A DNA stretch of 64,000 nucleotides from Magnetospirillum sp. SS-4. GTDB lineage: Bacteria > Pseudomonadota > Alphaproteobacteria > Rhodospirillales > Magnetospirillaceae. Positions 22,452-45,906 of the stretch are shown here, in pieces. A model generated the notes under the pieces. It was given only the letters and a program-made list of their open reading frames with translations, was not told the origin of the DNA and ran no database searches. The position numbers and the translations under genes are program-made. The stretch lies in NCBI RefSeq assembly GCF_902729425.1, contig NZ_CACVCH010000070.1:124001-188000 (forward strand). The letters run 5' to 3'. Numbering within the stretch: position 1 is the first letter of the stretch; every line of letters starts with the position of its first letter.

Positions 22452-23057
22452 TCACAACCAGGGCGTCGAGGTCCTGCGCTGGTCCTCGAACGCGGAGATC
22501 TTTTCCTCGCGCTGCAACGTCAGACCGATGTCGTCCAGGCCATTCAGCAGGCAATGCTTGCGGAACGGATCGACCTCGAAGCGGATCAGGCCGCCGTCGG
22601 GACCGGTGATGGTCTGCTTCTCCAGGTCGACGGTGACCACGGCGTTGGCGCCGCGCTCGGCGTCGTCGAGCAGCTTGTCCACCTGCTCTTGCGGCAGCAC
22701 GATCGGCAGGATGCCGTTCTTGAAGCAGTTGTTGAAGAAGATATCGGCAAAGCTGGGGGCAATGATGCACCGGATGCCGAAATCGTTGATGGCCCAGGGC
22801 GCATGCTCACGCGACGAGCCGCAGCCGAAATTGGCGCCGGCCACCAGGATCCTGGCGGCGCGGTAGGCCGGCCGGTTCAGCACGAACTCGGCGACTTCCT
22901 TGCCGTCCGGGGTATAGCGCATCTCGTCGAACAGATTCTTGCCAAGACCGGTGCGCTTGATGGTCTTCAGGAACTGCTTGGGAATGATCATGTCGGTATC
23001 GACGTTGATCATGGACAGCGGCGCCGCGACGCCGGTGAGAACGGTGAACTTTTCCAT
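22452..23057 (-). CDS. leuD: 3-isopropylmalate dehydratase small subunit
   Basis: Small subunit of isopropylmalate isomerase; pairs with LeuC. 201 residues with the hallmark [34 protein letters not shown] and [17 protein letters not shown]. Its ATG lies only 2 bases after the stop of the DUF4276 gene, so its translation is probably coupled to that gene and its transcription depends on passage through the ATPase/DUF4276 pair unless an internal promoter exists. Confidence 0.97.
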
Positions 23058-23059
23058 GG

Positions 23060-23632
23060 TCAGGCGGTTCCCATTTGCTCGGCGACCCGTCGGACGCCGG
23101 AGATAAAGACGTTAAAGCTGGTCGAGGTGTTGTTGTCGAGAGACAAATGCGGCGCGATGGCCTGCGAGCCATTGCGCGGCTGATAGGTCGGCGCCAGATC
23201 GATCAGCTTATTCTTGGACTTCTCAATGTGATCGGGGTTGCGGAATAGCTTCTTTGCCTGAAGCTTGGCGCAATCCTTCGCCAGACCAGCGTGTTCGACG
23301 GCCCGAAGATCCCCCAGGAACCACGCCTCCAATTCCTGGCAGACAATCCGGACAAGGGATTGCGGTCGCCCGCTGGCCGTGCATGTTTCCACAAGCCGGC
23401 TTTTTAATGCAACGCAATCACCACCGTCATTGTCCCGAACGATGACAAAGCGGGCTCGTGGGTTCTTCCAGGCTCGCAACTTTCTGGGAAAAGATCTTTC
23501 AAGATCGCCCTTGCCCGAATGAGGAATAATCTTGAAAGCCAGACCGTCCGGCAGAAGGCGGGGCAGGATGGCTTTCAGAGTGTTCTCCATCGAGGCTTCT
23601 TCCACCATGAAGACCAGTTCGGGTCCCATCAT
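23060..23632 (-). CDS. DUF4276 family protein (TOPRIM-like)
   Basis: A 190-residue protein of the DUF4276 type. TOPRIM-like features are visible: an acidic pair in [17 protein letters not shown] (E11, E12), and [11 protein letters not shown] with D67 and D69 spaced as a DxD. The conserved [11 protein letters not shown] follows at residues 98-108. TOPRIM proteins paired with OLD/RecF-type ATPases act as nucleases in several defence systems; this is knowledge of related systems, not shown here. The start overlaps the ATPase stop by 4 bases (ATGA). It then runs to within 2 bases of leuD. Base composition looks lower in GC than the flanking leu genes. Confidence 0.8.
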
Positions 23633-24816
23633 GGATCAACCTTCCCGAACAGTTTCTGTGCCCACAGACGGCCGGGTAGATCCCCCTCGCGGACCAGTGC
23701 CTCAAGCTGCGGGTCATCGGAGGCACGGGCGATGGCGCTAAAGCCATCCCTCTTCTCCAGCCAGAAGATAGAGTCCAGGGAAACGGCATCCAGGAAGTCG
23801 GGAGAGTGGGTTGAAACGACAACCTGCCCACCACGCCGCGCATAATCCTGAAATTCCTCAGCCAGTTCGCCCAGCAGCGAGTAATAGAGTTGGTTCTCCG
23901 GTTCCTCGACGCACAGCAGCGGATGGGGTGTGGGGTCGTGCAGCAGGACCAGATAGGCAAACATCTTGATGGTACCGTCTGAAACAAAGCGCGAGACGAA
24001 CGGATCCTTGAAGGTTCCGTCCTGGAAACGCAGGACGATGCGGCCATCCGCCGTTGGAACAGCCTCGACCTTGGCGACACCGGGAACCCGCCGGGTCATT
24101 TTGTCCAGAACCTGCTGGAACAGTTTCGGATGACTTTCATAGAGGTACTGGGTCACCAGCGGCAGATTGTCACCGTCGGCGGACAGATGCTCGGCATAGC
24201 CGGCATCTTTGGCTCCCCGAGCCGCGTTGATGTGAAAGTCCGATAGGTGCCAGTTCTCGATCAGGGAACGCACCGCACGAGCCGCCTTGAAACGCTGGAA
24301 CTGCCCCAGCCCTTTGAGTGCCAGAATGTCAGGCGAGTCCAGGGTCTGATCCTCGCGAGTCAGATCCTCGTCAGGCTTATTGAAATTCTCTTCGTTGGAG
24401 ATGGCGTAGCCCTGCCCGGAAGAGAACTGTAGGAAGTGAAACGGCTTGCCCTGGGGGCCGCGCTTATAGCGGAGAATCTCCTTCACCACCACCGGTTGGC
24501 TGTTGGGGGCTTTGCCGATCTCCACCAGATAGGTCACCAGCCGCTCTCGGTCGAGCAACTGCATACGAAACTTCAACTCGATCAGGATGGTCTGGTCGGC
24601 ACAGCCGCGCGACACCACCTCGTTGAAGCCGCCCCTCTTTTGCAGGGCTTGCCGGACATTGTTGCGCAGGGCATCGCCCAGAAAACCGAAAAGCTGAAAA
24701 AAAGTGCTTTTGCCAGCTCCATTGGCGCCGACCAAAACCATGAACTGCGGGACGTTGTCGATGGACACGTCCCGCAGCACCTTGAAGTTCTTGACCTTGA
24801 TGGACACAAGGCGCAT
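23629..24816 (-). CDS. AAA/ABC-type ATPase (OLD/RecF-like), partner of the DUF4276 gene
   Basis: A 395-residue stand-alone ATPase. It opens with MRLVSIKVKNFKVLRDVSI and Walker A GANGAGKST (residues 30-38), has the ABC-like signature FVSDGTIKMF (residues 277-286), Walker B PLLCVEEPENQL (299-310) and the H-loop VVVSTHSPDF (332-341). This order is that of AAA_21/OLD-type ATPases. It starts 12 bases after leuC and its stop overlaps the start of the TOPRIM-like gene. Codon use is looser and less GC-rich than in leuC and leuD, pointing to acquisition by transfer (inference). Possible roles are phage defence or DNA repair; no substrate can be assigned. Confidence 0.85.
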   Translation of the reverse strand: MRLVSIKVKNFKVLRDVSIDNVPQFMVLVGANGAGKSTFFQLFGFLGDALRNNVRQALQKRGGFNEVVSRGCADQTILIELKFRMQLLDRERLVTYLVEIGKAPNSQPVVVKEILRYKRGPQGKPFHFLQFSSGQGYAISNEENFNKPDEDLTREDQTLDSPDILALKGLGQFQRFKAARAVRSLIENWHLSDFHINAARGAKDAGYAEHLSADGDNLPLVTQYLYESHPKLFQQVLDKMTRRVPGVAKVEAVPTADGRIVLRFQDGTFKDPFVSRFVSDGTIKMFAYLVLLHDPTPHPLLCVEEPENQLYYSLLGELAEEFQDYARRGGQVVVSTHSPDFLDAVSLDSIFWLEKRDGFSAIARASDDPQLEALVREGDLPGRLWAQKLFGKVDP

Positions 24817-24828
24817 CGGAACGGCTCC

Positions 24829-26232
24829 TCAGAGGCTCCGAACGTCGGTGAGCCTGCCGGTGACCGCCGCCGCCGCCGCCATGGCGGGGCTGACCAGGTG
24901 GGTGCGGCCGCCGCGTCCCTGGCGTCCCTCGAAATTGCGGTTCGAGGTCGAGGCCGAGCGCTGGCCGGGCTTCAACTGGTCGGCGTTCATGGCCAGGCAC
25001 ATGGAACAGCCGGGCTCGCGCCATTCGGCGCCGGCCTCGATGAACACCTTGTCCAGTCCCTCGGCCTCGGCCTGCTCCTTGACCAGGCCGGAGCCGGGCA
25101 CGATCAGCGCCTGGACGCCGGCGGCGACCTTGCGGCCCTTGAACACTTCGGCGGCGGCGCGGAAATCCTCGATGCGGCCGTTGGTGCACGACCCGATGAA
25201 CACCACGTCGATGGCGATGTCGGTGGCCTTCTGGCCGGCGACGAGTCCCATGTAGTCCAGCGAGCGCTGCACCGCCTTCTTCTTGGCCTCGTCCTTGATG
25301 TCGGCCGGGTCAGGCACGGCGCCGGTGATCGGAATCACGTCCTCGGGGCTGGTGCCCCAGGTGATCTGCGGCACCAGGGCGCCAGCGTCCAGCTCGATCT
25401 CGACGTCGAAATGGGCGCCGTCGTCGGTGTGCAGCGTCTTCCAGTAATTGACGGCAGCCTCGAAGGCTGCCCCCTTGGGAGCGCGCGGCTTGCCGGCGAT
25501 ATAGGCGAAGGTCTTGTCGTCAGGCGCGATCAGGCCGGCGCGGGCGCCGGCCTCGATGGTCATGTTGCAGACCGTCATGCGGCCTTCCATGGACAGATCG
25601 CGGATGGCCTCGCCGGCGTATTCCACCACGTAGCCGGTGCCGCCGGCGGTGCCGATCCTGCCGATGATGGCCAGCACGATGTCCTTGGCGGTGATGCCGG
25701 CCGGGGCCTTGCCCTTGACCGTGATGCGCATGTTCTTGGCCGGCTTCTGCACCAGGGTCTGGGTGGCCAGCACATGCTCGACCTCCGAGGTGCCGATGCC
25801 GAAGGCCAGCGAGCCGAAGGCGCCGTGGGTCGAGGTATGGGAATCGCCGCAGACGATGGTGGTTCCGGGCAGGGTGAAGCCCTGTTCCGGACCGATGATG
25901 TGGACCACGCCCTGGCGGATGTCGTCCATGCCGAAATACTCGACGCCGAACTTCCGCGCGTTGGCCTCCAGGGTCTCGACCTGCACCCGGCTTTCCAGGT
26001 TCTCGATCCCCTTGGACCGGTCGGTGGTCGGCACGTTGTGGTCGGCCACCGCCAGGGTCATCTCGGGGTGGCGCACCTTGCGGCCGGCCATCTCCAGCCC
26101 CTCGAAGGCCTGCGGACTGGTCACTTCGTGAACCAGATGGCGGTCGATATAGATCAGGCAGGTGCCGTCATCCTGGACGTCAACCAGATGAGCGTCCCAG
26201 ATCTTGTCGAACAACGTGCGGGGCTTGGCCAT
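24829..26232 (-). CDS. leuC: 3-isopropylmalate dehydratase large subunit
   Basis: Large, [4Fe-4S]-carrying subunit of isopropylmalate isomerase. 467 residues, starting [17 protein letters not shown]. Cluster cysteines are recognisable in [14 protein letters not shown] and [10 protein letters not shown], and the aconitase motifs [14 protein letters not shown] and EYAGEAI are present. It leads the unit leuC-ATPase-DUF4276-leuD, with leuB further downstream. Confidence 0.97.
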
Positions 26233-45452: not shown

Positions 45453-45513
45453 CCCCTCTCCCGCGATGCGGGAGAGGGAGGGGCCAAAAGCGGAGCTTTG
45501 GGAGGGTGAGGGG
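45453..45513 (+). repeat. Left inverted repeat flanking the DUF559 gene
   Basis: Outer part: CCCCTCTCCCGC, loop GAT, then GCGGGAGAGGG, a perfect hairpin with 11-bp arms. Inner end: GGGAGGGTGAGGGG (45500-45513). The reverse complement of this arrangement occurs at 45857-45919. Such GC-rich palindromes resemble REP-type elements. Confidence 0.85.
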
Positions 45514-45534
45514 TTGTATGATACTCTTTTCTCC

Positions 45535-45906
45535 ATGCCCGGCCGACAAGCACGCCAATTGCGATATGTCATGACCGATGCGGAGCGTCGTTTGTGGTCG
45601 GCTTTGCGCGGTCGGCGCCTTGAGGGCTGCAAATTCTGCCGCCAGCACCCTCTCGGCCCCTTTGTCCTCGACTTCGCCTGTGTGGCCCATCATCTCGTCG
45701 TCGAAGTGGATGGCGGGCAGCACGCAGACAGCGAGGCCGACCGCAGCCGGACGGCGTGGCTGGAAAGCCAGGGGTGGCGCGTAATCCGGTTCTGGAACAA
45801 CGAGGTGCTCTCGAATATCGATGGCGTCGCCGCGACTATTCTGGCAGCCCTTGAAGCCCCTCACCCTCCCGGCCCTGAAGGGCCGGGCCCCTCCCTCTCC
45901 CACTGA
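45535..45906 (+). CDS. DUF559 family protein (Vsr-like endonuclease fold)
   Basis: 123 residues with the DUF559 signature: MTDAERRLWSALRGRRLEG, then FVLDFACVAHHLVVEVDGGQH and GWRVIRFWNNEVLSN. The family is related to very-short-patch repair (Vsr) endonucleases; the acidic residues in VLDFAC and VVEVDGGQH fit a PD-(D/E)xK core. The last 15 or so residues (PHPPGPEGPGPSLSH) are encoded by the right flanking repeat. It is on the strand opposite to the surrounding yej genes. An earlier in-frame start at 45448 would read through the left repeat and is less likely. Confidence 0.82.
   Translation: MPGRQARQLRYVMTDAERRLWSALRGRRLEGCKFCRQHPLGPFVLDFACVAHHLVVEVDGGQHADSEADRSRTAWLESQGWRVIRFWNNEVLSNIDGVAATILAALEAPHPPGPEGPGPSLSH

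Follow-up and report, generated by a model that had tools for sequence, protein, structure and literature searches.

PARIS, AbiL, Gabija GajA and OLD all join an ABC-type ATPase to a TOPRIM nuclease, either fused in one protein or encoded separately, and the TOPRIM motif consists of a conserved glutamate and a DxD pair. AriB of PARIS is a DUF4435-type protein, Gabija is made of GajA with its fused TOPRIM domain and the helicase GajB, and the partner of PtuA is the HNH nuclease PtuB. The PADLOC class HEC is expanded as "Hma embedded candidates" in a table row of PMC10855318, and HEC-01 is named in one sentence of PMC12724379. In the literature searched for HEC-01, HEC-05/06 and DUF4276, no HEC-01 experiments were found among the matches listed, and the word DUF4276 did not occur. 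Here, we analysed a gene pair inside the leucine operon of Magnetospirillum sp. SS-4, in a stretch of 64,000 nucleotides referred to as the window.

The four genes of the operon segment are all encoded on the minus strand. leuC, for the large subunit of 3-isopropylmalate isomerase, lies at 24829..26232 (Pfam Aconitase, 606 bits) and is followed after 12 bases by a gene for an HEC-01-type ABC/OLD-like ATPase of 395 aa (23629..24816), then by a gene for a DUF4276 protein of 190 aa with TOPRIM-like features (23060..23632), and finally by leuD for the small subunit (22452..23057; Pfam Aconitase_C, 135 bits). Reading of the sequence showed that the ATPase stop and the DUF4276 start overlap in ATGA (23629..23632) and that two bases (23058..23059) separate the DUF4276 stop from the leuD start, as TGA-CC-ATG. 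Thus the preliminary description, which placed the pair between leuC and leuD in an operon-embedded layout, agreed with the coordinates, the 12-, 4- and 2-base spacings, the shared strand and the Pfam families. The ATGA junction was also found at L090, L096, L063, L065 and L066. The leader of leuD in the window is only two bases long, and the bases preceding it belong to the end of the DUF4276 gene. A scan of the pair and its junctions for sigma-70-like consensus gave no promoter-like site, and no minus-strand terminator pattern was seen within the pair or at its junctions. Given that no promoter of its own is visible, the pair is probably co-transcribed with leuC, and the ATGA overlap together with the 2-base gap suggests translation coupling through to leuD. 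A search of the host genome returned a single match for leuD and one close match for leuC, the other leuC match (35% identity) being an aconitase-like paralogue; since only one leuD and one close leuC were found, the leu operon of the window probably has to function.

We found that the ATPase carries the motifs described for it in the preliminary description. In an alignment of 17 ATPases, the window's included, the residues G30, N32, G33, G35 and K36 of the Walker A motif GANGAGKS (residues 30-37, 24706..24729, minus strand) were invariant, as were S279, G281 and T282 of the ABC signature-like SDGT (residues 279-282, 23971..23982, minus strand), with D280 nearly so. The acidic pair E304-E305 of Walker B (23902..23907, minus strand) and the H-loop histidine H337 (23806..23808, minus strand) were also invariant. 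The protein scored 101 bits against Pfam AAA_21 (cut-off 27) and 638 bits against the PADLOC HEC-01 model PDLC04144, with residues 1-395 aligned on 1-394 of 395, while lower PADLOC matches were AriA at 93 bits, AbiLi at 82 and GajA at 49. An AlphaFold model built from the alignment (pLDDT 89) was compared with the PDB by Foldseek, which returned PtuA, retron-associated ATPases, the Thermus OLD nuclease, and Rad50 and SMC heads.

The partner protein scored 51 bits against Pfam DUF4276 (cut-off 30) and 217 bits against the PADLOC HEC-01 model PDLC04143, which is labelled HEC-01A (residues 5-186 on 3-186 of 190), and all 12 PADLOC models that it matched were HEC-01. In an alignment of 18 DUF4276 proteins, the window's included, E11, D67, D69, R95 and E102 (full-protein numbering) were invariant. 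E11 (23600..23602, minus strand), at the end of strand 1 and directly after that strand in the model, is the putative TOPRIM glutamate, and D67-x-D69 (23426..23434, minus strand) is the putative DxD metal site, so that the conserved glutamate and DxD of a TOPRIM nuclease are both present. A sequence search of solved structures with the DUF4276 profile found no relative. The AlphaFold model built from the alignment (pLDDT 95) had a sole PDB match at E < 0.001, the C-terminal region of Burkholderia OLD (6nk8; probability 1.00, TM 0.53, rmsd 6.4), and this match is specific but not close, as its geometry is weak. The 6nk8 region corresponds to the TOPRIM nuclease domain of OLD, and the predicted structure looks as expected for a TOPRIM fold of the OLD type. 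By analogy, the DUF4276 protein may be a nuclease. Taken together, the Pfam and PADLOC matches, the invariant residues and the structure-model matches bear out the proposal of a stand-alone ABC-type ATPase with a TOPRIM-like partner.

We then compared the pair with the known systems. Both proteins match HEC-01 nearly end to end, and the two genes are adjacent on the same strand with a 4-base overlap, the adjacency being judged here without PADLOC's own system rule. By its sequences, then, the protein pair is of a known candidate kind, HEC-01, and matches of 638 and 217 bits, far above those to AriA, AbiLi and GajA, do not support the earlier suggestion of an undescribed variant; an undescribed protein family was rejected on these matches. 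The HEC class is named for embedding in Hma, whereas the immediate neighbours of the window pair are leuC and leuD (only these neighbours were compared). The likeness to PARIS, AbiL, Gabija GajA and OLD consists of an ABC-type ATPase with a TOPRIM-type partner; the ATPase scores are far below that for HEC-01. PARIS was rejected because the partner is a DUF4276 protein, not AriB, and AriA matched at only 93 bits. Gabija was rejected given the 49 bits to GajA, the separate ORFs for ATPase and TOPRIM, and the neighbours leuC and leuD. The PtuA ATPases of Septu and retrons gave some of the best structural matches to the ATPase model, but the window partner is TOPRIM-like instead. For MADS, the ATPase reached 121 of the 420 bits of the NCBIfam cut-off for MAD3 and the DUF4276 protein only 15 of 160 for MAD4 (a faint match, E 0.022), and membership was rejected, the immediate neighbours again being leuC and leuD. 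Across the models PDLC04143, PDLC04144, PDLC04182 and PDLC04202, either protein of the pair can bear the label HEC-01A or HEC-01B.

The junction itself proved to be a recurrent insertion-tolerant slot, a feature missing from the preliminary description. Among 55 genomes of the family, leuC and leuD were paired on one contig in 48, with a median gap of 18 bp and a gap > 300 bp in 10. Two neighbouring junctions served as the only controls: rplS-leuC exceeded 300 bp in 1 of 48 genomes (382 bp) and leuD-leuB in 0 of 50, which gave Fisher P values of 0.008 and 0.0005, respectively, with related genomes counted as independent. In this set, leuC was joined from two pieces for G012 and G069 and leuD from two for G068; G019 and G025 entered with a cut leuC, and the junction of G021, where the longer leuD piece was used, was left uncounted. 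Coordinates for the family, order and class gap counts were transcribed by hand from the best ~150 rows of the match lists. Within the genus the junction measured 20 bp or less in 12 of 17 members, so the expectation of a clean site in relatives was borne out. Gaps > 300 bp were found in 10 of 62 genomes of the order outside the family and, in the class sample, in 32 of 109 genomes with same-strand neighbouring leuC and leuD (109 of 190 genomes), both from the best ~150 rows. The class count is without second copies, genomes with leuC and leuD on different contigs, and pairs far apart or on opposite strands of one contig (e.g. G324, G333, G336, G412, G435, G469); in G332 the leuC match ends at residue 428, which inflates the gap of 471 by ~117, though the gap stays > 300. 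Thus the statement that leuC and leuD are normally adjacent holds for most relatives but not for these 32 paired genomes of the class. Nine of the ten family inserts read with leuCD, the exception being G018 (binomial P 0.011, relatedness ignored), and so did all eight leu-linked pairs. A larger island at leuCD was considered for G017, G030 and G025 and rejected, since leuC and leuD are apart there, each among other genes (by eye). Genomes of genus g45 among the gaps listed have a leuC-leuD gap of 210-214 bp, which in G237 (L078), the one read, contains a 62-codon ORF. The leuB match of G031 (G031:C10:36700-37800) holds one in-frame TAA.

The cargo of this slot mostly differs from genome to genome and extends beyond defence genes. 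The ten family inserts were mostly dissimilar to one another: next to the HEC-01 pair of the window (G000), we found a trypsin-like protease (G007), DUF559 proteins (G010, G014, G078), a GDSL hydrolase (G009), an amidase (G019) and an antisense ShlB-family ORF (G018); the inserts of G067 and G069 are membrane proteins that contain a GDFLAG motif, with no Pfam family reaching its cut-off. In the order outside the family, the gaps > 300 bp held three HEC-01 junctions, a DUF1684 protein (G271) and shorter ORFs. In the class, contents were read in 26 of the 32 gaps, and RDD-like membrane proteins were the commonest cargo with nine of them (L132, L133, L134, L135, L140, L143, L146, L155, L156); these look alike, and Pfam confirmed the two that were tested. 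Membrane proteins with the motif NxxGDFLAGxxxPLAxxWL recurred as junction cargo in four genomes of three families, two of them in the class sample (G347, G416); these lie at L148 (70-876, plus strand), L141 (reverse strand), L040 and L041; none scored above a Pfam cut-off, and the two scanned had no PADLOC match. In G349 (L152, 97-1805, plus strand), a protein with HTH and IrrE-like peptidase parts is followed by a DUF4411 protein, and the two resemble a toxin-antitoxin pair. A DUF559 gene is also present elsewhere in the window (45466-45903, plus strand; Pfam, 132 bits). The DUF559 inserts between leuC and leuD are bordered by C-rich and G-rich stretches that by eye resemble inverted repeats, and the gene looks as if it were a small mobile unit. 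Much of the junction cargo is without an evident link to defence, which counts against a defence reading of the pair.

We further surveyed where related pairs occur. The pair was present in only 1 of 17 genus members, and among the 48 family genomes with paired leuC and leuD it occupied the junction in the window genome only. With the DUF4276 profile, 28 places were located in 26 of 317 genomes of the order, and 5 of these places touch leuC: in the window, G136, G266 and G147 the pair lies between leuC and leuD, and in G089 it lies behind leuC, with leuD on another contig. In the class sample, there were 10 DUF4276 places in 8 of 385 genomes, and only that of the window touches leuC. A scan of GTDB genomes gave 13 loci near the query. 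Three of them, in records titled Rhodobacteraceae or Rhodobacter MAGs, are flanked by leuC and leuD; none of the other ten is titled Alphaproteobacteria or touches a leu gene within the DNA examined. As the loci around DUF4276 matches cover ~1.5 kb on either side, with some cut short by contig edges, there may be further leu links. The arrangement is not unique, since related pairs occupy the junction in six more genomes and follow leuC in one further genome. G147 carries three ATPase-DUF4276 pairs of different subtypes (L092, L115, L116), one of them at leuCD.

Unlinked copies were also inspected. The six pairs at L126-L131, from this order, sit singly among ordinary chromosomal genes with no evident islands; nine flanking ORFs were compared with Pfam, and guaA, typA, a HupE gene and a LigT phosphoesterase were among them. 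A defence island around these copies was rejected, as 50 of the 64 neighbouring ORFs were scanned and gave few PADLOC matches (mad3, mad2 and three PycC models, each in one member). Guilt by association is weakened by these solitary locations. DUF4276 relatives were found in no phage record, only 8 plasmid records and 2 weak viral contigs, and carriage by mobile elements was rejected on these counts. On the Synechocystis plasmid pSYSM, one relative has toxin-antitoxin genes and a phosphorothioation-associated gene nearby. Another plasmid-collection record, NZ_AP026896.1 (L118), is titled pKAM479_3 and has 4.9 million bases, a size that suggests a chromosome.

No target-site duplication was seen, the longest word common to both junctions being 8 bases. 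Import of the pair together with leuC and leuD flanks was not borne out, as the identity of the window leuC and leuD to those of ten clean genus members shows no abrupt break at either junction; in this comparison the final 10-13 bases of leuC failed to align. Base usage is unlike that of leuC, as the preliminary description had noted, and GC3 was 0.72 and 0.67 for the ATPase and DUF4276 genes vs 0.91 and 0.89 for leuC and leuD.

How the pairs came to the junction can be read in more than one way, and we weighed a history of repeated landing, or of landing followed by exchange in place, against old residence, in which the pair would have been passed down vertically within the leu operon of Alphaproteobacteria and would have disappeared from most lineages. 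In the DUF4276 tree, six linked pairs from two orders (G000, G136, G089 and the three Rhodobacteraceae) formed one clade with support of 95/86, as an old resident would, but G266 and G147 formed a separate clade, and the starred branches force at least two linkage changes. This contradicts a single origin of all eight linked pairs, whereas the ATPase tree, in which the eight need two linkage changes, rejects neither a single clade of all eight (p-AU 0.129) nor one of six (p-AU 0.083). In both trees the linked rows were clustered, with 0 of 500 label shuffles as low. The leuC and ATPase distances correlate at r 0.82 over 15 non-independent pairs when G266 and G147 are left out, which again suits old residence, but at r 0.33 when they are included. 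These two congeners are 90% identical in LeuC but have ATPases of only 59% identity, whereas among G000, G136 and G089, which belong to different families, ATPase identity is 69-71% and LeuC identity 77-78%; a clock-like vertical history therefore fits poorly. The presence of the pair in so few genus and family members also speaks against it, and so does composition, since pair GC was below leuC GC in all eight leu-linked loci (compared with whole leuC in four and with a 3' part of it in the other four) and exceeded leuD GC by no more than 0.02 in the seven with an adjacent leuD. Judged from these comparisons, repeated landing or exchange in place would fit better, and old residence with many losses appears somewhat unlikely.

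What the pair does is a separate question. A role of the ATPase and its TOPRIM partner in DNA repair or housekeeping, rather than in defence, would explain why Rad50 and SMC heads match the ATPase model almost as closely as PtuA does and why unlinked copies lie beside guaA, typA and other ordinary genes. However, the patchy occurrence across the order and class genomes, the rapid divergence inside a genus, and the defence models HEC-01, MAD3, AriA and AbiLi as nearest profiles make this role unlikely. The varied cargo, such as the RDD-like proteins, GDSL hydrolase, amidase and protease, would also suit a neutral passenger, in which leuCD merely tolerates inserts and the pair is without effect on the operon or on phages. 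Against this, no stop codon interrupts the matched stretches of either gene in any of the eight linked loci, and dN/dS was 0.09-0.29 in the 5 of 10 comparisons where it could be computed (dS > 1 in all five, and saturated in the other five). These sequence comparisons indicate that the pair is under purifying selection, and we regard a neutral passenger as very doubtful.

We propose, with reasonable though not high confidence, that the pair is an HEC-01 cassette in the insertion-tolerant leuC-leuD slot, with a TOPRIM partner gated by the ATPase and probably transcribed with the operon. An HEC-01-type cassette of an ABC/OLD-like ATPase and a TOPRIM-fold DUF4276 protein would have settled between leuC and leuD, where insertion would break neither gene. 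Expressed from the leuC transcript, with ribosomes presumably carried on into leuD, the ATPase would keep the TOPRIM protein inactive and, on sensing infection, would release or activate it; the activated TOPRIM protein would then cut nucleic acid and could thereby serve defence. Control of a TOPRIM nuclease by the ATPase is suggested here by analogy with the described systems.

A closer tie between this HEC-01 lineage and the leu operon can also be imagined, in which the junction would act as a general shelter. In one form, positional addiction, the pair, ending two bases before leuD, would feed it ribosomes, so that prototrophy would need intact translation of the pair and loss-of-function mutations in the defence genes would cost leuD too; in the other, leucine starvation during infection would raise expression of the pair. 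We consider such a functional tie distinctly unlikely.

Systems outside defence islands are the subject of the abstract of PMC13092281, and on leuCD insertions or operon-embedded defence the titles and abstract openings of the literature searched held nothing on topic among the matches listed. What is new here is the recurrence of an HEC-01 lineage at a single junction of a core operon, a junction that itself behaves as an insertion site and differs sharply from the neighbouring junctions. Searches for defence genes mostly target islands and mobile elements; this candidate recurs in a core biosynthetic operon in two orders. If confirmed, operon-internal slots such as leuC-leuD could be searched for systems that have been overlooked, and the coupling to leuD would offer an easy test of how cells retain costly defence genes. 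Should the lineage be tied to the operon, accessory and defence genes of Alphaproteobacteria would have at the leuC-leuD junction a general shelter within an operon, away from defence islands.
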